A DNA stretch of 32,556 bases, from positions 1 through 32,556 of IMG/VR virus record IMGVR_UViG_3300028388_002120. One strand, 5' to 3'. Positions 72 through 23,400 of the stretch are shown one piece after another. The stretch's first letter is position 1. Each line of letters starts with the position of its first letter. This DNA is from a virus. The position numbers were made by a program, and so were the translations under genes. Below the pieces are notes generated by a model. The model did no database searches. It had not been told where the DNA came from and saw only the letters and a list, made by a program, of their open reading frames with translations.

Positions 72-3000
72 GTGTTGTTAAGTAGATTACTTGAAAAATA
101 TGCAAGTTATAATTGTATTTTTGAATTAGGTGCTTTAAGTGCGTTTACCGTAAATAATCCTCAAGAGACATATAGACTTAGCGGCGCCGATGTAACAATT
201 CTCCGCAGTGGAGGCGGCATAGACGAAAGACGAGTACAAACTGCTTACGATGCTCTAGGTAAAGAGCCTGGAAATCTAGAATATTTTATTGACGATGTGA
301 ATATACGTGCTATTGTTTCTCCGTCCAGACGCAGTGGTCTATCTCAAGCAACAAAGATAGAATTTACAGTAAATGAACCATATTCGATGGGCCTTTTTTT
401 ACAAGCTATGCAAGCCGCAGCACTACAAGCAAATTTTGCAAATTATCTCGAAGCGCCTTATATGCTCGAACTTGATTTTATAGGTTGGGATGATGAAGGA
501 AATGCAGTTCCAGTAGAAAACGCAAACAAAAAAATTCCGTTAAAATTAGCAAACATTGAATTTGATGTAGAACGTGGAGGAAGTGTATATAAAGTTAGTG
601 CATATCCTTGGAACGAAATGGCACTATTGGACAATTATCAAGTTATAGCAGACGATATTAGTATTTCTGGACCTAGTGTGTTTGAAATACTAACATCTGG
701 AGAACAAAGCCTTACAACCATTATAAACAGGGCAATTCTAACAGCAGCACAAGCAAAAGAAGAACCAGGCTCAGATACCTATTTGATTAGATTCCCTAGT
801 TCTAGAACTGGGTTAAACAACACGCAAACCGAAACAGCCGGTGACACTGGTGCAACTTCTGCTGGTGATCCTTTATCGGTTACAGCACAACTTGGAGAAA
901 ATGTAGGGGAATATGCAGCTGAAAGTCTTGCCGGCGGATTGTTTAGCAACACCGGAAATAGTGTAGTAGAAACCATTAGAAGTGACACATTAAATGATTT
1001 AAATCAGATAGGTGCTGCTTTCATGTTAGATCCAGATCCAATGAAAATTAGATCTAATGGCGATCATCCGTTTGGACTAGGTTTATATACTTGGGAGGAA
1101 AACGAAGATGGCGTGGGGGTTTATAGACGTGATGGCGTTGAACTTTCAATAACTGGCGATCAAAGAACATTTAAATTTAAACAAGGTACAAAAATTTCTA
1201 AAATTATTGAAGAAATTGTTTTAGCAAGCGATTATGGTAGAGCTGCTATTCAGAGTGTAAACGAAGAAGGAATGACGCCTTGGTTTAGAATTGAACCGCA
1301 AGTGTTTGTTTTAGATAATCCTGCACACGAACAAATTGCAGGTAGAAAACCTTTAATATGGGTTTACAACGTTGTGCCTTACGAAGTTCACATTTCGACG
1401 TTTAGTGCTCCTAACCAAGACATTGGAACTAAAGAAAGACAAAAACAAGCAGTAAAAGAATACAATTACATCTATAGCGGACAAAATCAAGATGTATTAG
1501 GTTTTGACATAAAATTTAATGCAGCATTTTTTACTGCTATTAATACCGACTTTGGTGAAAGAAGCGCAGGTGAAAGAAGTGCAACTTCTGAAGGTATTAC
1601 AGCTACATCTCCAGAAGCAGGAATTCAACGTGGTTCGGATACAATTTCAGATGAGCCTCAAGGGTCCACAGAAGTAGTGCCCTCTGCAACTGGCGTTGCC
1701 AGCGGAAATTATAATATTGATAGATTACAAAATATTGCAAGAACTTTTCATGAAGCTCTTCTTAATAGCGATGTTGATTTGATTACAGCTGATCTAGAAA
1801 TATGGGGAGATCCGTATTACCTTACTGATAGCGGTATGGGAAATTATAATGCTGAAAGATCAGGAGCATCAGTAATGGTTAATGCTGACGGATCTGCAGA
1901 CTATCAACAAGGAAATGTTCATATCGGTATAAACTTTAGAACACCAATCGATTACAATCAAGATGGTACTATGGAATTTCCTGAGGATACACAAGCTGTG
2001 AAAGGATTTAGCGGATTATATCGTGTACTCAGTGTAGATTCAAATTTTTCAAATAATCGGTTTACGCAAACGCTAGGATTACTTAGAGAAAGAAATCAAA
2101 GTTTAGAAGGTGCTGTTGAACAACAACAAGCGCAAGCAACAAGACAAACTGATGTTGCTACTAATACAAATGATGAAAACAATTCAACACCACCGGAGAC
2201 TACTGGTCAAGCAGTAAATGATAGAACAACAGCAACAACTGTTGCACCAGCAGCAGAACCCCTTAATGACAATGGCGATCTAGCTGAAATTGTTTCTAAA
2301 AATGGTGTAAGAGTTCAAGTGGCTGCACTATATGCAGATCGTTTTCAAGGATTTATTGACGAACTTGAAAACGACTATGGTTATGAAATAAGAACCTTAT
2401 CAGGTGAACGCAGAACAAGAGTATCGACATCAGGACGATGGAGTTATCATGCCAGCGGCTTAGCTATAGATATTAATGGCTCAGAAAATAGATGGATAGT
2501 TCCTAGATCGCCAACTGCTCCTGAACCAACAGACATGCCACAAAACGGCACCGGTTCTGCAATGCCAGCATTGGCTGCAAAATATGGATTAGGATGGGGC
2601 GGCGCATGGAACAGTTCTACAGATTCTATGCATTTTAGTTTAGCAGTTAGCGAAGGCGGAACAGTTGAGTGGGAGCCAAACGGATTAATTCCAGGGGCAC
2701 CTCAACCTAGAGAGCCTGTTGCAACAGGCGAGCCTCAAGAATTACCCACAGCTGGGCCCGACGATGGTTCTCGGTCTTCTGCACCAAGCGGAAGCCAAGA
2801 TCCAAATAGGAGAGCGTTTATTCAAGGAGAAATCGATAAATTAAATGCAAGTATTGCTCAAGGTAGAACTTCATTAGCAGATGCAGAAGAATTAGCAAAC
2901 ACTAGTACAAATCCAACTATAGTTTCGCAAGCAAATAGTGTTGCTGCCTCGCTTAGAGAAACAATACAAAACAAAGAAAGAGCATTAGCAAGAGCTAATG

Positions 3001-3287
3001 CTGATCTTAACAGTCTAGATCAATCACAAGTTGGGCTAGATGCTTTTGGAGGAACGGGTACTCCTGTGAGCAGTACATCCCCTGTTTCCAATACTCCTGT
3101 GAGCGGTACATCCCCTGTTTCCGATACTCCTGTGGCTACACCTAATCCAGCTAGTAACCCCCAAGGAAATGTATCTGGTCTCAGACCTTACTATGGTCTT
3201 AACATCGAAGATGATAGATATGACTTTAACACCGGCGATAAAATCAAAGCAATTCTTGCCGCATATAGGAATATAAACAATGGCTGA
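72..3287 (+). CDS. Baseplate hub-like structural protein with embedded M15-type peptidoglycan peptidase domain
   Basis: A 1071-residue protein directly upstream of the gp5 spike. Residues about 1-200 and 560-700 look like the beta-rich hub domains of large tail proteins in T4-like marine phages (for example 'LEIWGDPYYLTDSGMGNYN' and 'GFSGLYRVLSV'). Residues about 735-865 match an M15/VanY-type zinc peptidase: H793 and D800 in YHASGLAIDI, plus D851 and H854 in DSMHF, have the H-x6-D...H ligand layout of T5-type L-alanoyl-D-glutamate endopeptidase. It probably trims peptide stems of peptidoglycan during entry. Residues about 915-990 are a likely coiled coil, followed by a Ser/Pro/Thr-rich repeat linker. 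The GTG at 72 is a nominal start: it has no convincing ribosome binding site and lies four bases after an in-frame TGA, so the true N-terminus may be upstream. The TGA stop overlaps the next start by 8 bases. The family assignment is by recalled similarity and context; the peptidase motif is seen directly. Confidence 0.7.
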   Translation: MLLSRLLEKYASYNCIFELGALSAFTVNNPQETYRLSGADVTILRSGGGIDERRVQTAYDALGKEPGNLEYFIDDVNIRAIVSPSRRSGLSQATKIEFTVNEPYSMGLFLQAMQAAALQANFANYLEAPYMLELDFIGWDDEGNAVPVENANKKIPLKLANIEFDVERGGSVYKVSAYPWNEMALLDNYQVIADDISISGPSVFEILTSGEQSLTTIINRAILTAAQAKEEPGSDTYLIRFPSSRTGLNNTQTETAGDTGATSAGDPLSVTAQLGENVGEYAAESLAGGLFSNTGNSVVETIRSDTLNDLNQIGAAFMLDPDPMKIRSNGDHPFGLGLYTWEENEDGVGVYRRDGVELSITGDQRTFKFKQGTKISKIIEEIVLASDYGRAAIQSVNEEGMTPWFRIEPQVFVLDNPAHEQIAGRKPLIWVYNVVPYEVHISTFSAPNQDIGTKERQKQAVKEYNYIYSGQNQDVLGFDIKFNAAFFTAINTDFGERSAGERSATSEGITATSPEAGIQRGSDTISDEPQGSTEVVPSATGVASGNYNIDRLQNIARTFHEALLNSDVDLITADLEIWGDPYYLTDSGMGNYNAERSGASVMVNADGSADYQQGNVHIGINFRTPIDYNQDGTMEFPEDTQAVKGFSGLYRVLSVDSNFSNNRFTQTLGLLRERNQSLEGAVEQQQAQATRQTDVATNTNDENNSTPPETTGQAVNDRTTATTVAPAAEPLNDNGDLAEIVSKNGVRVQVAALYADRFQGFIDELENDYGYEIRTLSGERRTRVSTSGRWSYHASGLAIDINGSENRWIVPRSPTAPEPTDMPQNGTGSAMPALAAKYGLGWGGAWNSSTDSMHFSLAVSEGGTVEWEPNGLIPGAPQPREPVATGEPQELPTAGPDDGSRSSAPSGSQDPNRRAFIQGEIDKLNASIAQGRTSLADAEELANTSTNPTIVSQANSVAASLRETIQNKERALARANADLNSLDQSQVGLDAFGGTGTPVSSTSPVSNTPVSGTSPVSDTPVATPNPASNPQGNVSGLRPYYGLNIEDDRYDFNTGDKIKAILAAYRNINNG
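3060..3140 (+). repeat. 33-bp tandem repeat coding a TPVSxTSPVSx linker
   Basis: Two nearly identical 33-bp units begin at 3060 and 3093, and a degenerate third begins at 3126. They encode TPVSSTSPVSN, TPVSGTSPVSD and TPVATPNPASN near the C-terminus of the hub protein. The composition suggests a flexible Pro/Ser/Thr linker between the coiled coil and the last about 45 residues. The unit is a multiple of three, so copy number can change without breaking the frame. Confidence 0.8.
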
Positions 3288-6264
3288 AAGTAGACGAAGT
3301 TCTGATAACGAAAATAATGTAGCAAATGGGCGTAACGTACCTGCTGGAGTATACGAAGCAATAGTAGTAAGTCATCTTGATAGTACCTATATGGGAGGAT
3401 TATTAGTTGACGTCTTACATCCTACATCCTCTGGTTCTTTACCTGAAAGAATAGGAACAAGTGTTGAAGCAAGATACCTAATGCCATTTTATGGAACCAC
3501 ACATAGAGAGGCAACAAGTCCCAATGACGGGTATAGTGCAACACAAAAAACATACGGAATGTGGATGGTTCCTCCCGATGTTGGAACTAAAGTTTTAGTT
3601 ATTTTTCTTGAAGGCGGTTCTAGATGCTATTGGATTGGGTGCGTTCAAGACGAATATATGAATTTTATGATTCCGGACGGCCGACCAAGCACCGATCTCA
3701 CCACTGATATTACACCTAATAATCTAAAAGGTAAAAAATTGCCGGTGGGCGAATATAATAAAAAGGTAGAACGTGCAACAGGTAATGATCCAACTAGATT
3801 TAAGAAACCTTATAACAAGGATTTTACACAAGTACTAGAAGTACAAGGATTATTAGACGACGAAAATAGAGGAACAACGACATCGAGTGCAAGACGAGAA
3901 GTTCCTAGTGCTGTGTTTGGTGTAAACACTCCTGGACCATATGACAAGAGAGCTGGCTCTCCTCGTTCTCCTCAAGGCCAAGCTCAAAACAAAGCAAATG
4001 TCTATGCTAATAGGCTAGGCGGACATAGTTTTGTAATGGATGACGGCGACGATAAGTTTATTCGTAAAACTACTGCCGATGCAGGACCTCCAGAATACGT
4101 AAACAAAGAATTAGGCGAAGCAGGCGGTGATCCTACACTTCCCCATAACGAATTAATGAGATTTAGAACACGTACAGGACATCAAATATTGATGCATAAT
4201 ACGGAAGATTTTATCTATATTGCTAATTCAAGAGGCACTGCCTGGGTAGAACTATCCTCAGATGGTAAGATTGATGTTTATGCAAATGATAGTATTAGTG
4301 TACACTCTGATCAAGATATCAATCTAACAGCAGACAGAGATATTAATATCGAGGGCGGAAGAAATGTTAATATTCGTGCTAGTGCTGCGTTTAGTCAAGG
4401 AAATCCCGAAGCAATAGTTACAGTAGAATCTGTATCTACAGTGTATCCACAAGTTGATGATACTCCACCTGAGCCTATATCAGAAGATCCCCAGAATATT
4501 TTCGTTTTAGGAGATAGTCACGGAGTAGCTATTAAATCTGCAGGAGATTTCCAAGGATCCCCTGTAAACGGAGCAACGATACAAGCATCTGCTGGACAGA
4601 TCAGCGCCATACCGGATAATTCTACTGTGGTTGTTAGTGTAGGAAACAATAATATTGGCTCCGAACCAGGAGTGGTTTTAGATAATATACAAGTAGGAAT
4701 TTTAACACCACTTAAAAATAAAAACTGCACAATATTTGTAGTGGTGTTCCCTGACATCGATCTAAACGGAGCATATGCATCTACCTACAGTTCTGCAGGA
4801 TATACAGCTAACTATAATAGTGTAAGAGAAGTAGTAAAAAGTGCAGCAAGTGCTGTCGGTGCAACAACATTTGAGTTGACCAGTGCAGATATAAATCCTG
4901 CAGATCCGATGAAAATACATGCAACACCTGCAGCATATCAGAGAATTGCAGATCAAGTGAAACAAGCTGCACCAGGCGGTTCAGTACAGCCCTCTGAAAA
5001 TACTGCTAGAGCTCCAAGACCAGAACTTTCAGTAGAAACACAAACTTTTACAGCACCTAGTGGCAGAGTTACAATAGAAAGTAAGTTTGATACCCACATT
5101 AGGTCGGATAGAGACACTAAATTTCACGTTGAAAGAAATAGAGACGATTATGTAAAAGAAAACTATAAAACATTTGTTGAAGCAAATAGAGATATAAAAA
5201 TTACAGGTTATCTAAGGCATTCTAATGAAGGAAACATAAATTTCGAAACTACTGGTGGAAATTATTTTGTAACTGCTAGTTCAGGTAATTTAGATTTTAA
5301 TGCTAGCGATAATATAAGATCTCAGAGCGGTAATGACATTAGCTTAAAAGCTGGAGGCAAAATTGCAGGCGACGGTAACCCTGATGTTATTTGGAATAGT
5401 AGTGCTTCTGTGCCTGCACTTACAGCAACACCTGCTGTGCCTGCTGCAAAAGTTGTTTTACTTAAAAATTACGGAGTTACAAAAGTAACCCCAGGCGGCA
5501 CCGCCGGATCCACAGTTCCGAGCATTGTAAAAAGATCTCCAACACACGAACCTTGGACGCAACATGAAAATTTAAATCCTCTAGCATTTAAACCGGCTAA
5601 TCTTGATAGGGAATACGACGAGCAACCTTTACAAGCATCCTATAGTATAACACCTGATACATTTAGGAAAGGCGTAGGTATAACCCCTCCTTCTAGCGCA
5701 CCTGCATCAGTAGCAGGTCAAACACAAGAAGATGGAGAGATTGGATCACCTGATCAAGCATATACTCCACCAATCAATCTTGTAGAAAGTGCATCTAATG
5801 CCGAAGCCAGAGCCACTGCTGAAAATTATCTCGGTAGACCTATGAATGATCAAGAATGGGATTACCTTGTACGTGCTACAGTTGCAGAAGCAACCTCTAA
5901 TCCTCAAGAACAAGCAGGAGTAATGGCGGTTATGCTCAACAGAGTGGCTGCAAATGGATATGGAGGAAATGATGTAGTTTCAGTTTTAGAAGCGCCGAAC
6001 CAATTCCAAGCAGTCACCGGAACAAGAGCAGATGGTAATCGTCCAAGTAGAAACTTTACTAATCCTACAAGAAGTCAAATTGATGGCGCATTAACTGCTA
6101 CAGTAAATTATCTACCTAGTGCTAACAAAGATTGGTTAAACTTTACCGCTTACAATCCTGCTGCTTACGGTCCTGGAACGAATATAAACTTTAGGCAAGA
6201 TGTGTTAAACGCTCCGGGCTCAAGGGTTATAGGCGGAACAGTGTTCGGTACAGTTAGGGGGTAA
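3280..6264 (+). CDS. gp5: gp5-like baseplate spike with SGNH-hydrolase-like insertion and C-terminal SleB-type cell wall hydrolase
   Basis: A 994-residue central puncturing spike. Residues about 20-135 resemble the gp5/VgrG OB fold (VYEAIVVSHLDSTYMGGLLV). Residues about 290-370 form the first beta-helix stretch with alternating short repeats (SDQDINLTADRDINIEGGRN). Residues about 405-560 look like an SGNH/GDSL hydrolase: GDSH with candidate nucleophile S413, a GNNN block, and D542/H547 in DPMKIHATPAAY. Residues about 590-705 return to beta-helix repeats. Residues about 840-990 match the SleB/Hydrolase_2 family: VAEAT with catalytic-candidate E870, then GVMAVMLNRV and NQF. T4 gp5 is 575 residues with a T4-type lysozyme between its OB fold and helix; that domain is absent and the C-terminal hydrolase appears to replace it. 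ATG 3280 is preceded by AGGA at 3267-3270 and overlaps the hub gene by 8 bases. gp5 identity is strong; the enzyme calls rest on visible motifs. Confidence 0.85.
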   Translation: MAESRRSSDNENNVANGRNVPAGVYEAIVVSHLDSTYMGGLLVDVLHPTSSGSLPERIGTSVEARYLMPFYGTTHREATSPNDGYSATQKTYGMWMVPPDVGTKVLVIFLEGGSRCYWIGCVQDEYMNFMIPDGRPSTDLTTDITPNNLKGKKLPVGEYNKKVERATGNDPTRFKKPYNKDFTQVLEVQGLLDDENRGTTTSSARREVPSAVFGVNTPGPYDKRAGSPRSPQGQAQNKANVYANRLGGHSFVMDDGDDKFIRKTTADAGPPEYVNKELGEAGGDPTLPHNELMRFRTRTGHQILMHNTEDFIYIANSRGTAWVELSSDGKIDVYANDSISVHSDQDINLTADRDINIEGGRNVNIRASAAFSQGNPEAIVTVESVSTVYPQVDDTPPEPISEDPQNIFVLGDSHGVAIKSAGDFQGSPVNGATIQASAGQISAIPDNSTVVVSVGNNNIGSEPGVVLDNIQVGILTPLKNKNCTIFVVVFPDIDLNGAYASTYSSAGYTANYNSVREVVKSAASAVGATTFELTSADINPADPMKIHATPAAYQRIADQVKQAAPGGSVQPSENTARAPRPELSVETQTFTAPSGRVTIESKFDTHIRSDRDTKFHVERNRDDYVKENYKTFVEANRDIKITGYLRHSNEGNINFETTGGNYFVTASSGNLDFNASDNIRSQSGNDISLKAGGKIAGDGNPDVIWNSSASVPALTATPAVPAAKVVLLKNYGVTKVTPGGTAGSTVPSIVKRSPTHEPWTQHENLNPLAFKPANLDREYDEQPLQASYSITPDTFRKGVGITPPSSAPASVAGQTQEDGEIGSPDQAYTPPINLVESASNAEARATAENYLGRPMNDQEWDYLVRATVAEATSNPQEQAGVMAVMLNRVAANGYGGNDVVSVLEAPNQFQAVTGTRADGNRPSRNFTNPTRSQIDGALTATVNYLPSANKDWLNFTAYNPAAYGPGTNINFRQDVLNAPGSRVIGGTVFGTVRG

Positions 6265-6271
6265 ATACGAT

Positions 6272-6718
6272 ATGAGCACACTAGAAAAAAATTTATACAA
6301 AAGAGTACAAGTAGCAGATCCTCAAACCCAACAAAAACCTGCTAGCAGCTCTGCCTATCGTAGTATTTCAACTGTTAACGATGAAAATGATAGTTTTCGT
6401 CTTTACGACCTTGCTGTTATCAAGCAAGATATTATAAATCACTTTCATATCCGTCAAGGAGAAAAACTAGAAAATCCCGAATTTGGCACTATTATCTGGG
6501 ATGTGCTATTTGACCCACTAACTGAAAGTCTTAAACAAGCCATTGTAAGTAATGTACAAGACATTATCGACTATGACCCAAGAGTCGCTGCTGATCAAGT
6601 GATCGTCAACGAATATGAAAGCGGAATACAAATCGAATGTGTGCTAATTTATCTTGATTATAGTATTGCAGAAACTATGCAACTACAATTCGATCAACGT
6701 AACGGGTTGCTGTCATAA
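6272..6718 (+). CDS. gp25: gp25-like baseplate wedge protein
   Basis: A 148-residue member of the GPW/gp25 family, which joins the sheath-initiating end of the wedge to the baseplate core (homologous to TssE of type VI secretion). The family core is visible: GEKLENPEFGTIIWDVLFDP at about residues 67-86, then the helix leading to YDPRV, where D102-P103-R104 stands in place of the usual EPR motif. It is slightly longer than T4 gp25 (132 residues), with a polar N-terminal extension of about 40 residues. ATG 6272 follows a G-run at 6257-6261 inside the end of the spike gene, and only 7 bases separate the two genes, so it is probably co-transcribed and translated in sequence. The gp5-gp25-gp6 order is typical of T4-like marine phages. 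Confidence 0.9.
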   Translation: MSTLEKNLYKRVQVADPQTQQKPASSSAYRSISTVNDENDSFRLYDLAVIKQDIINHFHIRQGEKLENPEFGTIIWDVLFDPLTESLKQAIVSNVQDIIDYDPRVAADQVIVNEYESGIQIECVLIYLDYSIAETMQLQFDQRNGLLS

Positions 6719-6773: not shown

Positions 6774-8243
6774 ATGTCAGCAACAGATAGACAAAATCGA
6801 TTATTAGTTGCGGAAGATTGGAAGAGAGTTTACCAGTCGTTCCGCAACGCAGATTTTCAGAGCTATGATTTCGACAATCTACGTCGAACAATGATTAACT
6901 ACCTTAGAGAGAATTATCCTGAAGATTTCAATGACTATATTGAAAGTTCAGAGTACCTTGCACTAATTGATCTTATTGCTTTCCTGGGTCAAAATCTTGC
7001 TTTCCGTGTCGACCTTAATGCCAGAGAAAATTTCCTTGAATTAGCAGAACGTCGTGAAAGTGTTTTAAGACTAGCTCGATTGTTGAATTATAATCCTCGC
7101 AGAAATCAAGCTGCTAACGGTTTACTTAAATTTACTGCTGTAAAAACCGACGAAGATGTTATTGATTCTAACGGACAAAATCTTTCAGGACAAACCATTC
7201 AATGGAACGATGTCACAAATTCTAATTGGTACGAACAATTTATTAAAGTTTTAAATACTGCTTTGCCAGTAAACGGAGTTTTTGGACGTCCAAATAAGCT
7301 AGACAACGTAGCAGGTATTACTACTGAACAATATCGATTTAATGGCGTAAATACCAATGTACCGGTATATAGTTTTGAAAAAACAATCGAAGGAAAAACC
7401 ACACCGTTCCAAGTTGTTTCAACAGACATTGTTAACGGCGAACTAAAGGAAGAAGATCCGTTACCGGGTAATAATTTTGCTTTTCTATACAGAGACGACG
7501 GCCAAGGGGCAGGAAGCACTAACTCTGGATTTTTCTCGCATTTCCGCCAGGGAGTTTTAGCAAATGGATCTTTTAGTATTACACAACCAACAGAAAATCA
7601 AACAGTAGCAATCGATGCTACTAATATTAATAATTCTGATGTTTGGTTATTCAAATTAGATTCTAATGGAGTTGAAACAGAAAGCTGGACTAAAGTTGAC
7701 GCTGTTGAAGGTAATAATATTATCTATAACAGTATCAACAAAGGTATTAGAAATGTTTTCAGTGTGTTAACAAGGATTGATGATAGAATCAACTTAATCT
7801 TTAGTGACGGTGTATTTGGCAACTTGCCAAAAGGTAATTTCCGTACTTACTATCGCACAAGTGCAAATCGAAATATGATTATCACACCTGCAAGTATGCA
7901 ATCGATTACAGTAAGAATACCTTATCTAAGTAAACAAGGCAGAGTACAAAATCTCACAATTACAATGGGATTACAATATACTGTATCAAATGGTGACATA
8001 GCAGAAACAAATAATAGCATTAAATCAAATGCGCCAGCAACTTATTACACACAAAATAGAATGATTACTGGTGAAGATTACAATGTAGCTCCTTTAGCAA
8101 TAAGTCAAGATATTGTTAAAGTAAAAAGTGTAAACAGAACTTCAAGCGGAATAAGTCGGTATTTTGATTTAATTGATGCTACCGGAAAATATAGTCAAAC
8201 TAATTTATACGGAAATGACGGTGTAGTATATAAAGGTATTTAG
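6774..8243 (+). CDS. gp6: gp6-like baseplate wedge protein, N-terminal part (frame broken at 8227-8243)
   Basis: 489 residues of a gp6-type wedge protein, the ring-forming subunit that clamps the central hub in T4. The start is solid: ATG 6774 with GAGGA at 6763-6767 and a late promoter box before it. The N-terminal block (MINYLRENYPEDFNDYIESS followed by SEYLALIDLIAFLGQNLAFR and the ERRESVLRLARLLNYNPRRN helix) is characteristic of gp6/Baseplate_J-like proteins. The frame ends at TAG 8241-8243 right after DGVVYKGI, without a plausible C-terminus. Coding-like sequence continues without a gap in the frame one base further on, so this is half of one gene, not a complete protein. Restoring the frame by +1 at about 8241 gives about 1070 residues, longer than T4 gp6 (660). 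Confidence 0.85.
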   Translation: MSATDRQNRLLVAEDWKRVYQSFRNADFQSYDFDNLRRTMINYLRENYPEDFNDYIESSEYLALIDLIAFLGQNLAFRVDLNARENFLELAERRESVLRLARLLNYNPRRNQAANGLLKFTAVKTDEDVIDSNGQNLSGQTIQWNDVTNSNWYEQFIKVLNTALPVNGVFGRPNKLDNVAGITTEQYRFNGVNTNVPVYSFEKTIEGKTTPFQVVSTDIVNGELKEEDPLPGNNFAFLYRDDGQGAGSTNSGFFSHFRQGVLANGSFSITQPTENQTVAIDATNINNSDVWLFKLDSNGVETESWTKVDAVEGNNIIYNSINKGIRNVFSVLTRIDDRINLIFSDGVFGNLPKGNFRTYYRTSANRNMIITPASMQSITVRIPYLSKQGRVQNLTITMGLQYTVSNGDIAETNNSIKSNAPATYYTQNRMITGEDYNVAPLAISQDIVKVKSVNRTSSGISRYFDLIDATGKYSQTNLYGNDGVVYKGI

Positions 8244-9987
8244 AGTAGGGTCCGCTACAACAAACAGTTTAAAATTTGTTGAGCCTGGAGCAGTAATTAA
8301 ATTTGTTACAGGCGATCCTAATAAATGTTTTGATAAAAATAATAATATTGTAAACCGACCAGTAACACAAGCTGGCGATAAAGAATATATTTGGACTAAG
8401 GTTTTACAAGTAATAGGAACAGGTGCAAATTTAGAAACTTATCAAGGTCCCATCACACTAGCAGATAAGATTCCATCAGGTGCAACCGTTGATGAAATTT
8501 TACCAAAATTAGCTGAAAGTTTAACTGACGACCTGAAGGTAGAAATTATTGACCAAACATTTGCTTATAATGATTTTGGACTACGTTATGATGTAGATGC
8601 TAGACAATGGCGGCTAATTAAAAATTCTAACCTTGATAAAACAAGTAGTTTTAACACAGGCTTTACAGGCGATGTTTCTAATTTAAATCTCGACAGTAGT
8701 TGGTTAATACTGTTTGAAACAAACGGCGAAACATATACAGTCACTTATAGGGGACTTCGTTACATATTCGAAAGTGATAAAGAAATTAGATTCTACTATG
8801 ACTCTAATGATAAGGTATATGACAATAAAACAGGAAAAGTTATAAAGGATAAAATTAGTGTGCTTAGTATCAATACTAAGCCTGATGATACAAGTGCCTT
8901 TACTAATGGCTTTCAATGGGAAATATTAGAAGAATATAGAGACGGTGAAGGTTATGTAGATAGCACTAAAGTAGAAATTACATTTGCTGACCAAGACAAC
9001 GACGGCACAATTGATGATCCTGATTTGTTTAATAATATTGTTGGTCCAGATCCAAGTCGTTCTAATGTAGGTAAAATTATAGTTTTAGAAAAATATTTTA
9101 CTGAAGCAGGAACAGAAGATTTCCGCTATATAGATTATGAGCAAGCCGGCATACGCATAGGACGAGGCGATCCACTTTTATTAAGTTTGTATAACGACGG
9201 TGACGTATTTTATGATCAAGATACAAATACATTTAAATATCTAAATGCATCTATTCCAGAATTAATTGTTACATCTAATTATAGAGCATTCAAAGGCAGA
9301 GATAAATTAAAATTCCATTATGTGCATGTGGCAGATAGTAATAAACGTATTGATCCAAGTGCAAGCAATTTAATTGATGTTTATATGTTAACAAAAGGAT
9401 ACGACAGAAACTTTAGATTGTATCTAGATAATCAATTAAGTCAGCGTCCTTTACCGCCAAGCAGCGACGAACTATTCCGATCTTATGGTTCTGAAATTAA
9501 TAAAATAAAATCAATATCCGATGAAGTTGTATATCATCCGATAAAATATAAAGTGTTGTTTGGTCCTAAGGCAAACCCAGATCTACAGTCAGTGTTTAAA
9601 CTAGTCAAAAATCCAGATCTAGTTTTAAACGATAACGACATAAAAACACGAGTAATTGATGCAATCAACCAGTATTTTGCGTTAGAAAACTGGGATTTTG
9701 GAGATACGTTTTATTTCCAAGAATTGGCGACATATATAATGAATACTCTAGCACCAGACCTAGTAACAATTGTAATTGTTCCAAAACAAACAAATCAATC
9801 ATTTGGTAGTTTATTTGAAATACGTTCAGAATCAGATGAAATTTTTATTAACGGTGCAACAGTTGATGATGTAGAATTGATCAATGAAATTACAGCATCG
9901 AGATTAAACGCAAGCGGTAATGTAGTTACAGCAAGTTCTATTACAAACAGTACCGGTATCCAAAGTAGTACAACAGGAAGTTATTAA
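8227..9987 (+). CDS. gp6: gp6-like baseplate wedge protein, C-terminal part (+1 frame)
   Basis: Open frame of 586 residues that continues gp6: RVGSATTNSLKFVEPGAVIKF, then WTKVLQVIGTG, DFGLRYDVDARQW and YTVTYRGLRYIFES, a pattern I recall from gp6 of T4-like cyanophages. The frame opens at 8227, after TAG 8224-8226. There is no ATG near its start. The nominal GTG at 8860, with AGGA at 8846-8849, lies in the middle of conserved sequence and would drop about 211 residues, so it is unlikely to be a real start. The last residues are Ser/Thr/Gly-rich. Its TAA shares one base with the ATG of the giant gene. The 8244-8859 stretch is therefore coding, not intergenic. Confidence 0.75.
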   Translation, partial: YIKVFRVGSATTNSLKFVEPGAVIKFVTGDPNKCFDKNNNIVNRPVTQAGDKEYIWTKVLQVIGTGANLETYQGPITLADKIPSGATVDEILPKLAESLTDDLKVEIIDQTFAYNDFGLRYDVDARQWRLIKNSNLDKTSSFNTGFTGDVSNLNLDSSWLILFETNGETYTVTYRGLRYIFESDKEIRFYYDSNDKVYDNKTGKVIKDKISVLSINTKPDDTSAFTNGFQWEILEEYRDGEGYVDSTKVEITFADQDNDGTIDDPDLFNNIVGPDPSRSNVGKIIVLEKYFTEAGTEDFRYIDYEQAGIRIGRGDPLLLSLYNDGDVFYDQDTNTFKYLNASIPELIVTSNYRAFKGRDKLKFHYVHVADSNKRIDPSASNLIDVYMLTKGYDRNFRLYLDNQLSQRPLPPSSDELFRSYGSEINKIKSISDEVVYHPIKYKVLFGPKANPDLQSVFKLVKNPDLVLNDNDIKTRVIDAINQYFALENWDFGDTFYFQELATYIMNTLAPDLVTIVIVPKQTNQSFGSLFEIRSESDEIFINGATVDDVELINEITASRLNASGNVVTASSITNSTGIQSSTTGSY

Positions 9988-14458: not shown

Positions 14459-17400
14459 GAGTATACTATCGTGTAACAAACAGTCATGTAAGCTCTACAG
14501 ATTTTGACGAAAATAATTTTGCTAAATTATCTTCTTTACCGCAAGTGGGTGGCAGAGATGCAGTGTTAAGACGAACGTTTACTCAAAGAGAACTAACATT
14601 ACCTTACGGCACACTAATAAGAACAGTACAAGAAGTTGTAGATTTTATTTTAGGATATCAAGAGTGGTTAAAAAATCAAGGTATTATATTTGAATACTTC
14701 AATGAAGAAACTAATCAAATTGAAGACTGGAACTTCTCAACAAAAGAATTTTTATTTTGGACCACCCAAAATTGGGCAGCAGGCAGTGTAATAGCATTAA
14801 GTCCTGGTGCACAGGAAATACGTTTTAAGAGAGATTTTGTTGTTGTAGATAATATTTTTGACGATTTTTACAATTACAGTTTATTAAAAGCCGACGGCAA
14901 AAAACTTGAAAGACGATTTAGCTCTATTGCTAGAGATAGCGAAAATGATTTTGGTTTAAGATCAAAAAACACAGCAGACGGCATTTATGCAATTCGTTTA
15001 CCGTTAGTACAAAAGGAACACATAGTCCTTCTAGACAATAAAACTGTGTTCAATGATTATATCTATGATCCGGAAGCAGGATATCGCCAAGAGCGTATTC
15101 GTGTTACCGGCTTCCGCTCTGACGCATGGTCCGGCGGATTAAACATTCCTGGATTTATTTACGATAATGCCAGCGTAACAGAGTGGGAAGCATGGAAAGA
15201 CTATTCAATTGGATCACTTGTAAAATATAAAGAATTTTATTATGTTGCATTGGGTAACTTAACTGGCGTAGAAGTTTTCAATAGTTCTGACTGGGAACGT
15301 TTGGAAGAACGCCCACAAGCACAGATGTATCCTAACTTTGACTATAGAATCAATCAATTCGCAGATTTTTACGATCTTGATAGTGATAATTTTGATGTTG
15401 AGCAACAGAAACATGCACAGCATCTTATAGGTTATCAAAAACGTCAATATTTGCAAAATATTATCAACGACGAAGTAAGCCAATTTAAATTCTATCAAGG
15501 ATTTATTCAAGACAAAGGCACAATTAATTCTTTAACAAAATTATTTGATGCACTTGCAAGTGCGGACAAAGATAGTTTAGAGTTTTATGAAGAATGGGCT
15601 GTGAGATTAGGACGCTATGGCGCTACTGATAACTTTGAAGAAGTAGAATATATAATTGATGAAAAGGAATTAAAACTTGACCCTCAACCTATCGAATTAG
15701 TTGATAGTATTCCGCCTAACGATGTTGATCTAACATATAAATTATCTAGAGGTGATGTATACAGCTCACCTAGGAATTACGATCATGCACCGTTTCCAAT
15801 TACAACAAATCCACAAGCAACAACTCGTTCTGCAGGATACGTTTTTGATCAAGATGTAAGATTTAGAATTGATAATAAAAGCGATATGATCGGAAAGAGT
15901 ATTAGTGTTATTGGTCCCGAAGATTATATTTGGGTCACAGGTCGAGAGGAAGATTGGGACGTTCTACAGCTTATTAACACTGATTATAGAGTAATAGACA
16001 TTCAAGTTGAAGATGAAGGCGCTGATGGGCTAGGTCAGTCGGTTACTCCGACTGCAATTTTTACACTTGATAGATCTGCGGAAGACTTCGATATAAATCA
16101 AGTAATTGGAATGTCAAACGTAAAAGAGCAGAACAAAGGATTTTTTGGAATTATTGAAATCCAAAATAATAAAATCACGGTCGAAGTTGCATCAACACAA
16201 GTATTAGTTCCAAAAGAGGAAGACGAAGAAATTAATGGTTATATTGCTGTTCTTAGAAGTGTAAGAGCAAAGTCTACGTCGAATCAATCTCCTATCGAAG
16301 TAGCTAATAACACCTTTGGAAATAATACACTACTTGATAAACAAAGAGTTTGGATTGACGGTATTACTGAAACTTCGTGGAAAGTGCTGCAAAAAGAAAA
16401 ATCGTTTGATACTTACTATCAAGTAATAAATCCAGACAACACTGTAAGTAATAGTGTTGAGTTTGGAAGTGATATTGCAGTAAATAGATCCAATACTGTT
16501 ATGGTAGTCGGTGACAAAAATAATAGTAAGATTCATTCTTATGTGAGACCGAGTATTTCAAATGAATTTCAATTAGTCGAATCTAAAGATCCAAATACAA
16601 GTATCAATGGCTTTGGCGATAATATTGCAATAAGTGAGGATTCAGAGATACTTATTGTTGGATCACCAGAAGCAACAGGATTTAGCAGTAATTTTGTTGG
16701 TAATTATAGTAAGTCTATATCTTATCAACAAAATTCTATTGTAAAATATCAAGAAAATTACTGGAGTGCTATAAGACAAGTGCCTGCAGAAAATAATGCA
16801 GTTACATTTACTACATTTGACAGTTATGCATTTATTGAAAAAAATAATGATAGTAGTAAACTGGATCTTTTACTACAAGGCACTCCTTATCTTGCAAACG
16901 AACTTACTGATCACTTATTAGTTAAGGCTCCTATAGATCAATATAGAGCAACAGAAGCGGGAGATAAACTTTATCTTAGATGGAATCTATACACTAACTT
17001 TAACAGAGTCGAAGGTAGTAATATCGCAGTTCAACCGTTTCCAACAAGGATCAATACTGCTAATACAGGACAATATAAAGCCCCTGATGCAAACTTTATA
17101 AACGGTGAGCATGTAATTGTTGAAAAAATTGATCAAGTTATTTTGTTGACTGAATATGCAAATCCTCCTAAAGAAGGCGACATAGTTAGTACAAGTAGCG
17201 GTCAAGGTACAGTAGACAAAGTCTTCAAGAAAGACTTTAGTATGGTATTATATATTAAAAATATAAACGGAGAATTTTTAGAACAAGATGATTTATTCTT
17301 AAATGAGCAGTTGGTTGGTTCTTATCAAACACCTCATTATAATACTGCTTCTGGAACAGGAGGTTGGTGGTATATCAACACAAACAATCAGTATTTTACT

Positions 17401-20400
17401 AGTAATGAATTTACTGCACTAGAAGATTTTTCAGACCCGGGTTATGGGTTAGTATACCAAGATATATTCACGTATAATGAAGACACAGAATCATATGCAA
17501 GAACCAACCCAAACTATTATTACAACAGTTTAGACGGTGTGCAAGCATATGGAATTAATAAAGAAACTGCATTTATTACAACATTAAGTCATCGAGGCGA
17601 TGCTTACGAAAATCCTGTAAGAGATATAAACGACAGCCGCTGGTTGATAAGGTTACCAAAAGAGTTAGAGAGTCAAGTCTCGGTTGACGATTATTTAAAC
17701 ATTTGGATTGACGATGATGCAGACCCTGTTGATGAATTATTGACCGGAATTGATGCTACAATTATTAACATGAATCCAACAGGCAGCAACGAAGGCACCC
17801 ACAGAATTAGAGATTTCTGGGATGGTTATATTGATTTCAAACACTTTAACACGCAGCGTGATGTAGATTTTGATAGTGACAGTCAAACTGGCGACTTTTT
17901 TGAACCAAAAATAGGTGATATTGTAGAAGACGGGCTAACAGGTACAGAAGCAGAAGTTGTATACTACATAAAAAGAAATCAAAGTGACGCAAGAATTTAT
18001 TTAAAAAATATATCAGGACAAGGTTTTACATTATTAGATCAAATAAAACTAAAAACTCTGGAAACTAACAATATACGTGACGACATTAATGGTCTTCCTA
18101 ATAAACGTCCTATGGGTATAATTCAAAAAATTAGTCTCGCAGATGCAACCGTAGGCAAATTAGCTGTATTTGAAGAATCACAACCTGTTGCAACTGATAC
18201 AAACGGACTTCCGCTTTATGCACCAGGTGCATTCACGTGGCCTGCGAATGCCAATTCTTATTTTGGTGATCTAAATGATTTTGCGTATGTCAATAAAGAA
18301 TATTGGATCTATAAAGAAGTACGCGACGAAGTGGGAATAAACTTGTCAGCAAGTATCCCAAGTACATCAAACAGAGACTGGCAAATTGTATACAATATTC
18401 CTGTTGTAGAAGACGGATTAACAACATATACAAATTCAAAAGGTATTTACAGTTTATATAGACGAACAGGTAATATTTGGCAACACATAAACGACTATAC
18501 TCTGCCTTCAGATGATACACTAGTAGGTAAAACTGTTGCAGTTACACGAGACAATAATCTGTATAGAATTTATATTGGAACCCAAAATCGTGTTCATTTC
18601 GTTAAACATGGCATCGATAATACAGAAACTGCCTATGTGTATGCATTAGATATTGATAAAAATTACAGAGGTGAATACTCTGCAGAAAACTTATATAGAT
18701 TGAATGAAATTGTTAGATACAATTCAGGTTTTTATAAATCTTTGACATTTAATTCTAATGTTACTCCAGCAGGAAGTTTAAAATGGCAATTTATAAGTGA
18801 AGAAGTTGCAAATAGTCATTACGTTCCTATTGATGACAATATATATAACGATACATTGTTTGATCCAATTGATGCTGTTAACCATTTTTCAAAAGATATT
18901 GCAGTATCAGAAAAGGGTGATGTTTTCGTTACTTCGATTGAAACAGACACAAGTGTTGATGTAGATAACAAAATAGCAATTTATCGACTTAATTCCGAAG
19001 GAAGATATGTATGGAGCCAAACAATACTAGCACCACAAAGCAGTACTGGTTGGGCATCTAGCATTGATTTATCTAAAGATGGAAAAACATTAGTTGTTGG
19101 TGATCCAGGTAATAATACCAACGAATCAGATAATGGACTTGTTTTTGTTTATCAGTTAAATTCTAATGCAAATCCGCAGTTTGAGATAACACAGGTCTTG
19201 AATTCTCCTAGAGAAGAAAAATTTGAAAAATTTGGCACAAAAGTAAGTATTACCGATAATTGGATAGCAGTTTCTAGTTTTAATGGTAATATTAGAATTA
19301 ATACTACTATTGATAACGATAGTACAACTTTTGACCGTAAATTTACAACTTATAGTAAACGCCTAACTGACAGCGGTAGTGTAACACTTTATCAAAGAAT
19401 TGATAATGATTATATAATTGCAGAAGAATTAGAGCATCCAGATGCAACAGATGCAAGATTTGGTGAAAATTTATTAATCAATGGTAATGAAATATACATA
19501 GGAAAGCCTAGAGCAATTAATACAATTGACGGGGTTACATACAAAGGCGCAGTATGTAATTACGGGATGCCTAAAGAAAAATACTCCTGGACAGTGTTGA
19601 GAGAAAGCGTTGACGTAGTTGATACTAATAAAATCAAACAAGCATTTTTATATAACACTAAAACCAATCAACTAGTCGAATATTTAGATTATATTGATGT
19701 ACAACAAGGTAAAATTCCTGGACCAGCAGATCAAGAAATTACATTCAAGAGTTACAATGATCTTGCAAAATATAATATAACTACACGCCGCGCCATTTTT
19801 AGTGAATTAAACAATTGGGAAGAACAATATGTTGGAAAACTTTGGTGGGATTTAAGCACAGCAAGATTTAAAAATGCCTATCAAGGTGATGTAATTAACC
19901 AGCTTAATCGCTGGAATAAAATTTTACCAAACTATCAAATTGATGTATATGAATGGGTAGAAAGTGACATTCCTCCCCTAGAATGGGACGAACAAGCAGA
20001 TACGCCTACGGGTTTTGCAAAGGGTATAAGCGGACAAAGTCGTTACGGTAATTTGGCATATTCACAAAAACTGGTTTATGATCCTGTCGCACAAAACTTT
20101 GCTACAAAATATTATTTCTGGGTAAGAAATAAATTTACTATTCCTGATATAGCAGGTAGATCTATAAGTGCAGGTGATGTTGCAAAACTAATTGAAAACC
20201 CTGCCGGTCAAGGTTACCGCTATATTGCATTGTTAAGTAATCGAAGATTTGGACTTGTTAATTGTAAAAATCTAATTTCTGATACTGACATTGCTCTCAA
20301 TATAGCATACTATACACAAGATAATCAAGAACAAAATACACATACCGAATATCAAATAATTTCAGAAGGATTAGAAACTAGTCAACCAAAAGAAGATGTA

Positions 20401-23400
20401 ATATCCAAGTGGGTCGATAGTTTAATAGGCTATGATTCCGCCGGTAGTCCAGTACCAGATCCTAATCTATCACCAAGACAAAAATATGGTAATCTAAATT
20501 ATCCAAGACAAAGTTGGTTTATTAATAGACAGGAAGCTCTTAAACAAGTAATTGAAAGAGCAAACATTGTAATGTCTAGAAATATCATGGTTGACGAATT
20601 TAATTTTGATAGATTGAACAGCAAACAGCCTGAACCTAGAATTACCTCGTTTACATATGATTACGTTATTGATACTATCGACGAACTTCGTTTTGTTGGT
20701 ACAGTCAGATCTAAACCCGCAAAAATTCAACTTAGAGTGAATAACGGTAGTGTCACAAAAGCAAGTATCATCGATCAAGGTAGAGGATATGTTGATCTGT
20801 CTTATGTAGCAGGCAAAAGCTCTAGAAGAAAAGGGCCAAGTTACAGTGTAATTGGAACTGGGCAAGATTTAGAATTAGATTTTACTATTAATAATCTTGG
20901 CCAAGTTACCAATGTTGATATTGTTAATCCTGGATCAAACTACGAGAGTAATACATTAGTTGAAGTTCGTAGATTAAGTGTTTTAGTTCGTAACGACAAT
21001 ACAGTTAATGGTCGTTGGTCGATATATGAATGGAACGAAATTGATAATAAATGGGTAAGGAAAAAGGTACAGAGTTATAACACAACACTGTATTGGAGAT
21101 ATATTGATTGGTACGCAGATGGTTACAGTCAATTTACTACATTTGATTATTTGGTAGATTATAGTTATCAGTTACAAGCATTAGATGATCGTATTGGCGA
21201 TATTGTTAAAATTGGATCAATAGGCTCCGGAGGTTGGCTGTTACTTAGAAAGATAGCAAACACCGGATCAAGAGATTATACTGCCGATTATGAAACAATT
21301 GGTAGAGAAAACGGAACTATAGAATTTGATGCAAAACTTTATGATGTTGCAGTTAGTAATGTAGGATTTGATGCGTTTGCATACGATAGTAAATTCTTTG
21401 ATTCAGAACCTGTCACAGAGACTAGGCAGATTTTAGAAGCACTCAAAGAAGACTTAATGATAGATAATTTAGCCAAAGATTATAACGAATTATTCTTTGC
21501 AAGTATTCGCTATGTGCTATCAGAACAGTTTAATGTAGACTGGGTATTTAAAACTAGCTTTGTTAAAGCCAAACACAATGTAGGTGAACTAGAGCAAAAA
21601 ATTACATATCAAAACGATAATTTACCTAGCTATAATGATTATATCGAAGAAGTTAAACCTTATAAGACAAATGTAAGAGAATATCTGTCAGCATACGATC
21701 GTATTGAGGATACAAACACTCTTACAACGGACTTTGATGTGCCACCATTTTACGATAAAACACAAGGCAAAATCGTTGGAAGTAGCTTGAAAGTAATTAA
21801 CAATGCGCTTGTTGGTGCAGAACCAAGATTTGATAATTTTCCAGACAAAGGCTATATTGATAATGCAGGCTTTGAAATCATAGATATTGCAATAGCTGAC
21901 GCCGGCGCAGGTTATTCAAATACTCCTAAAGTGTTTATCGAAGGCGGCGGCGGAAGTGGAGCTACTGCAAGAGCATATGTGGGTCGAAACAAGATCACAA
22001 ATATCGAAATTACTAATTCTGGAAGCGGATATTTAAGTGCGCCAATAGTCAGGTTAGTTGGCGATGTGGATGACGGCGGCAGAGAAGCAAAGCTAACAGC
22101 CATTTTAGGCAATTCTTTAGCTAAAAGTTTTAAAGTTATTACTAAATTTGATAGGGTAAGTGGCGAGTATTTCATAGTAAGTATGCCTGAAACTGAAACA
22201 TTTACAGGCACTGCTCAAAATACAACATTTAATCTAAGTTGGCCTATGGAATTAAAAACCAATCGTGTTACAGTTACTATTGATGGCGAAAAACAACTAC
22301 GAAGTAAATATTCATTTAGAAATGTTGAGGACAATACTTTATCATATAAAAGACACAAAGGACAAATAGAGTTTGCAACTCCGCCCGCACTTGGTGAACA
22401 AATTGTTGTAGAATATAATAAAGACCCTGCAATGTTAACTAGTGCTGATCGTATTAGAGAGTTTTATAAACCAACAGCAGGCATGCCGGGTATTGACCTA
22501 GGACAACTTATGCAAGGTGTTGATTACGGCGGAGTTGAAGTTCGTAGCTTTGATTTTGATGGTCCTGCAGGGTATGACACAGACGGATGGATGTCAGAAC
22601 CTTGGGATACCTATGACAATACTTATGAAGATATACTGTTTATTGCAGATGGTACAACCGTCGTAATTGATTTAGATCAACCATTAGAAGATGGAGTAGA
22701 ATATAATGTATATCGCAACGGAATTAGGATTGACGATCCTGATTATAATCTTACACCAACAAATCCAAATGCAGAAATGCAATCAATTACAGGTGCAGGA
22801 CAGTCTCTTGTAAATCTTTCAGGTATAACTGCACAGGACGGCGACAGATTTATACTTCGAAAAAATACATCCGACGGTAGCTTCTTACCAGACGGCGATA
22901 GCTTTGACACATTACTAGAAGGCGGCAACTTGTTGTACGGCAATGCAAGTGGAATTAACGCTGAAGATATAATTGTAGACGGCGACTTGTTTGTCACTCC
23001 AGTTTCGTCAGGCGGCCCTGAAGAACTGGTTCCGGGACAAGTTTTAGATACAGTGGATATTAAAGTATACGAGCGTTTTGGTCAAGGTCAAGGTGAAGTT
23101 TATAACCAAAATTATATTACAGACGGTTCTACAAATACCTTTGATTTGGGATTATTTCCAAACAACGACGATGCAGTAATTGTAAAACTAGGTAGTACCA
23201 TATTAAGTGATGATCAATATCTTGTTGATAGGGTTTCGCAAACAGTTAGACTTTACCAAACACCTATAGAAAATCAAAGACTTACAATATTAAGTGTTGG
23301 TCAAAACGGAAAAAATATTATCGATATTAATACAATTATTGCTTCTGGTAATACACCTATATTAGAGACAAAAGTTCAATGGACTAGTGATCTACAATTT

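Follow-up and report, generated by a model that had tools for sequence, protein, structure and literature searches.

Described hub and spike systems

In contractile tails, contraction pushes the spike across the outer membrane, and the enzymes carried by the hub and spike end at the wall. The gp27–gp5 complex of phage T4 resembles the locus described here in that a hub is combined with a trimeric OB/beta-prism spike bearing a glycan-cutting domain, with gp25 and gp6 adjoining. Unlike T4, in which one lysozyme lies between the OB domain and the beta-helix, the present locus distributes its predicted enzymes over three sites: the hub, the interior of the spike beta-prism and the spike C-terminus. 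Multi-enzyme hubs are already known from cyanophage A-1(L), whose hub gp15 has three enzyme-like domains, with endoglucanase and peptidase activities demonstrated (PMC10966104; PDB 8kea). This gp27-type hub with several wall-degrading domains is also the best structural match to our hub; its enzymes are lysozyme-like, endoglucanase and peptidase, as against M15, SGNH and SleB here, and, in contrast to our locus, they are confined to the hub, the spike carrying no enzyme. In Staphylococcus phage 80alpha, the Tal protein fuses a gp27-like N-terminal domain to a predicted GDSL/SGNH domain (PMC7048315). Unlike the phage considered here, 80alpha is a siphophage without a beta-prism spike, and its SGNH domain, of putative activity, is located on the hub.

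A homologous chassis is found in jumbo phages of the RaK2/CBB type, whose spikes (RaK2 gp078 and CBB_240) bear a C-terminal lysozyme. Unlike the payload of our locus, this lysozyme is of the GH24 type, with a possible M23 domain reported; the RaK2/CBB proteins gave no SGNH or SleB match, and their hub lacks M15. Mass spectrometry of CBB virions detected both CBB_240 and CBB_241, which are homologues of our spike and hub (PMC5259590); the spike of RaK2 had been predicted and was not detected (PMC3622015). VgrG spikes, which belong to a bacterial secretion system rather than to phage entry, likewise have exchangeable C-terminal effector domains, and a VgrG3-like C-terminal domain occurs in two of the relatives identified here. 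Against this background, the new elements are an SGNH insert within a spike beta-prism, a payload split over hub and spike, SGNH siblings of which some are apparently active and others apparently inactive, and the scale of payload exchange.

A hub and spike locus with three enzyme-like domains

The window (the whole stretch of DNA analysed, a 32.6-kb viral metagenome fragment) encodes a hub and a spike, followed by gp25 and gp6 (Table 1). With a probability of about 0.68, we read it as specifying the hub–spike puncturing complex of a large T4-like myophage, in which a swappable enzyme payload is mounted on a conserved chassis. The source phage is probably marine. An earlier note on this DNA had described two adjacent, overlapping genes encoding an M15 peptidase, an SGNH hydrolase and a SleB hydrolase, and had assigned them to the hub and spike of a contractile tail. 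Both statements are borne out: the hub and spike ORFs share 8 nt, Pfam recognises M15_4 and, weakly, Hydrolase_2, structure prediction recovers the SGNH fold, and structure matches, phrog_13211 and gp5/VgrG profiles identify the chassis. For the further expectation that both proteins reside in the tail, the detection of their homologues in CBB virions (PMC5259590) supports the chassis, not the payload of the window phage.

Table 1. Features of the hub and spike locus, in positions of the window.
Feature	Position	Strand	Basis
gp27-like baseplate hub, read as 1071 aa	72..3287	+	Similarity of the AlphaFold model to hubs
gp27/gp44/VgrG-N-like hub body, residues about 5-680	84..2111	+	Predicted structure
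Low-confidence linker before M15 domain, residues 679-733	2106..2270	+	pLDDT under 50
M15_4 peptidase domain, hub residues 741-877; H793, D800, D851, H854	2292..2702	+	Pfam E 1.7e-14
Predicted long helices (coiled coil), hub residues 911-987	2802..3032	+	Hub model
Central spike protein (gp5-like), 994 aa	3280..6264	+	phrog_13211 E 1.1e-50; profile matches gp5/VgrG spikes in PDB
Part of OB domain (Phage_base_V), spike residues 89-121	3544..3642	+	E 0.03
First beta-prism part (Gp5_trimer_C / DUF2345), residues about 301-371	4180..4392	+	Pfam, PDB profile
212-residue insertion, spike residues 381-592	4420..5055	+	Absent from five nearest spikes, alignment
SGNH-hydrolase-fold domain, residues 406-563; Ser413 (GDSH), Asn457 (GNNN), His547 (KIHAT)	4495..4968	+	Structure prediction
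Remaining beta-prism and following region	5056..5532	+	
RSPTHEPW motif 3' of beta-prism; candidate spike apex	5533..5556	+	Kept in 58/70 spikes
SleB-type (Hydrolase_2) domain, residues 861-994; candidate catalytic Glu870	5860..6261	+	Pfam
Baseplate wedge gp25	6272..6718	+	PF04965 E 2.6e-8
Baseplate wedge gp6, broken by apparent one-base frameshift near 8235	6774..9987	+	phrog_10646 on both pieces

The hub displays the tandem tail-tube-like fold of gp27-type proteins. In its AlphaFold model, the body of the protein matches the A-1(L) hub with Z 13.7 over 274 residues, Mu gp44 with Z 12.3 and T4 gp27 with Z 9.5; hub sequence profiles found no solved structural relative. Since homologues extend about 165 residues further at the N-terminus, the 5' part of the window hub was probably cut or corrupted by the contig edge, and the true start probably lies upstream; an in-frame stop occurs at 66-68, just 5' of the start as read. 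The spike shows the gp5-type succession of an OB domain, matched weakly by Phage_base_V, and a trimeric beta-prism. Its RSPTHEPW motif has invariant His/Glu residues nearby, a pattern from which this region could be a metal-binding spike apex. Further along the window, the two pieces of gp6 match one family in different frames on either side of positions 8225-8250, and the break may be a sequencing error or a programmed frameshift. A single ORF of 3495 residues (14545-25032) lies downstream of the baseplate genes.

The enzyme-like domains might instead be lysis genes, fused by chance or misannotated, that serve mainly in lysis from within and not in entry. Endolysins do occur among the M15 and phrog_90 families; however, the domains are internal or terminal in a conserved hub and spike that lie beside gp25 and gp6, and homologues of the chassis are present in virions (PMC5259590). 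Such an origin is therefore highly improbable.

Predicted peptidase and glycan-cutting domains

On the hub, the M15_4 match covers residues 787-856, near the C-terminus, and all metal/catalytic residues of the HxxGxAxD and DxxH motifs are present. The His/Asp/His set is kept in all 31-32 distinct homologues that cover these positions, and the second Asp in 30/32. Confidence of the hub model is low across the M15 region, and a PDB sequence search with this region gave no match.

On the spike, the SleB-type assignment combines a profile match with a candidate catalytic Glu. Hydrolase_2 gave E 7e-5 with the whole spike, under the Pfam cut-off, and E 6.6e-6 with the domain alone (27.1 bits against a cut-off of 27). 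Homologues of the domain score up to E 2.9e-8, those of loci L026 and L087 being clear matches, and the Glu870 position is kept in all four aligned SleB domains (window, L026, L087 and L090). No SleB relatives were found in annotated phage records by tblastn. Bacillus anthracis SleB is described as a lytic transglycosylase, according to a reference given in PMC6660665.

An SGNH-fold insert in the beta-prism

The SGNH domain occupies a clean insert that breaks the beta-prism, and the five nearest spikes (L001, L002, L004, L091 and L120) are continuous across the insertion point in the alignment. A model built from seven sequences (pLDDT 79) has the three-layer SGNH fold, with SGNH hydrolases throughout its match list (Foldseek E 2.2e-5; Z 14.0 over 156 residues). 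Pfam and PHROGs gave the window domain no name, a PDB sequence search with the SGNH profile returned no match, and no relatives were found in bacterial genomes by a pattern-based scan or in annotated phage records by tblastn. A 1440-aa protein of L074 was rejected as an SGNH relative, being a weak match whose alignment lost all motifs.

Blocks I, II and III and the His of block V are present in the window and in L082 as GDSH, GATI, GNNN and KIH. The block V Asp, canonically three residues before the His (DxxH), is missing; the window has Met at this position and an Asp five before the His. An SGNH lipase from Streptomyces rimosus is active without the block V Asp (PMC10779480). Because the Asp is missing, the window domain is assigned to SGNH by fold and not by activity, although some active members also lack this residue.

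The nearest folds are tied between sialate O-acetylesterase, acetyl-xylan esterases and the peptidoglycan O-acetyltransferase PatB, and SGNH domains are common in phage tail fibres and tailspikes. Both observations would suit a device whose target is not peptidoglycan but surface polysaccharide or capsule, with SGNH as a deacetylase and SleB and M15 in secondary roles. Yet peptidoglycan is the substrate of the M15 and SleB families, and placement on the spike suits the envelope interior, not reception, so a surface target appears rather doubtful.

Conserved chassis and exchanged payloads

Spike relatives were found at a minimum of 598 viral loci. From the fetched loci, the first of which were those nearest the window, 69 non-redundant spikes besides that of the window were assigned to payload classes with profiles made from small clusters, and the payload family names were taken from Pfam and PHROGs. 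The spikes carry M15 (14), GH19-like (9), GH24 (6), SGNH with endolysin-like and M15-like domains (6), phrog_90-type (4), phrog_27932-type (4), other M15-like (4), VgrG3-like (2), SleB (1) or Phage_lysozyme2 (1) payloads. In the other 18 of the 69 no payload was recognised, so the design does not depend on any one enzyme. In L061, the spike is apparently split into two adjacent overlapping ORFs (2876-6390).

On a chassis tree from a quick search without bootstrap, the payload changes at least 19 times and the hub M15 twice, and SGNH and SleB each appear at two separated places. The nearest relatives of the window combine an M15 hub with a GH24 spike that lacks SGNH; thus, relative to them, SGNH and SleB are recent arrivals in the window. 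Hub M15 domains were found in nine relatives (L001, L002, L009, L091, L092, L097 and L145, with L004 and L120 read from partial hubs), which are mostly of one clade and hence not nine independent cases. All nine have spikes with a different type of payload module (GH24, phrog_90-type or phrog_27932-type), each of them a predicted glycan cutter, and none has a second M15.

In the L082 clade, SGNH, endolysin-like (phrog_90) and M15-like domains occur together in one spike. The middle domain is putatively lambda-R (GH104)-like, as read from its motifs and supported by phrog_90; a PDB sequence search with the endolysin-like region of L127 gave no match. This clade is an independent version of the same kind of trio, and the three-activity device, with its activities predicted, is a real and recurrent architecture.

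Apparently active and inactive SGNH copies

After near-identical copies were merged, eight distinct SGNH domains were compared. Ser and His are both present in two (window and L082) and both lost in six from a sister clade (L125, L126, L127, L128, L129 and L133), in which K, F or G replaces the Ser and F or R replaces the His. None of the eight sequences has a mixed state (Fisher p 0.036, ancestry ignored). In the inactive SGNH copies, dN/dS is 0.15-0.29, similar to that of neighbouring domains, which suggests that the fold is useful without its catalytic pair; the loss of both residues in six homologues further indicates that SGNH can persist as an inactive module.

These losses bear on whether SGNH acts as an enzyme at all. 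It could be a carbohydrate-binding or structural module, leaving two working activities, a peptidase and a glycan cutter. Consistent with this, the aligned spikes with inactive SGNH keep the candidate Glu of the endolysin-like domain and the H/D motif of the M15-like domain while the SGNH fold remains under the constraint noted above, and the window itself lacks the canonical Asp. Conversely, the window and L082 retain Ser, Gly, Asn and His, the coupling of Ser and His in 8/8 is as expected if they are co-catalytic where both are kept, and the S. rimosus lipase is active despite lacking this Asp (PMC10779480). A purely non-enzymatic SGNH is thus possible, at well short of even odds. Judging from sequence, the Ser–His pair is probably catalytic in the copies that keep both, and the fold probably retains a use in binding where the pair is lost.

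The earlier note had named amide, ester and glycan targets for the three domains and had looked to their co-occurrence in other viruses. The three modules are real, and M15 and SleB have the expected catalytic residues, whereas ester activity of the window SGNH is plausible only, because its canonical Asp is missing and six homologues are inactive by sequence. As for co-occurrence, a peptidase is repeatedly accompanied by a glycan cutter and the L082 clade has an analogous trio, but the specific trio that includes M15_4 and SleB was found in the window alone among the loci examined.

Proposed action at the cell wall

For the puncturing complex proposed here, the spike would pass the outer membrane once the sheath contracts; the M15 domain, tethered flexibly to the hub, would then cut peptidoglycan peptides, and the C-terminal SleB of the spike would cleave glycan strands by lytic transglycosylation. 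Together, M15 and SleB cutting would give the tail tube a local opening. The SGNH domain in the side of the spike would most likely remove esters, e.g., O-acetyl groups, from surface polysaccharide or peptidoglycan or, if inactive, may bind the same sugar. The simultaneous presence of the modules is supported; that they might act in sequence, as the earlier note suggested, and in which order, we infer.

O-acetylation inhibits lysozymes and lytic transglycosylases (PMC6174289). The SGNH domain might therefore be a peptidoglycan O-acetylesterase that unblocks lytic transglycosylases, such that the device deprotects and then cuts, a tentative idea that we consider unlikely. The two spots at which SGNH occurs are distant on the chassis tree, and at both the spike also has a predicted lytic-transglycosylase-type domain (SleB in the window, lambda-endolysin-like in the L082 clade). 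If the idea were true, the inactive SGNH siblings would mark hosts without O-acetylated walls, and the phage would possess a means of entry that counters a known modification conferring lysozyme resistance.

The family constitutes a natural payload series on one device, with matched SGNH copies that are apparently active or inactive, so that it can be asked which wall chemistry fits each payload and whether the payload helps to set host range.

Synechococcus phage S-H38 gp166 (L193, 4184-7774) was considered as a comparable hub or spike and set aside, as it looks like a tape-measure protein instead. Its single chain includes M15 and an SGNH fold, the latter recognised by structure match only and having GDS and DKIH, and tape-measure proteins of Rhizobium phages carry the same M15.
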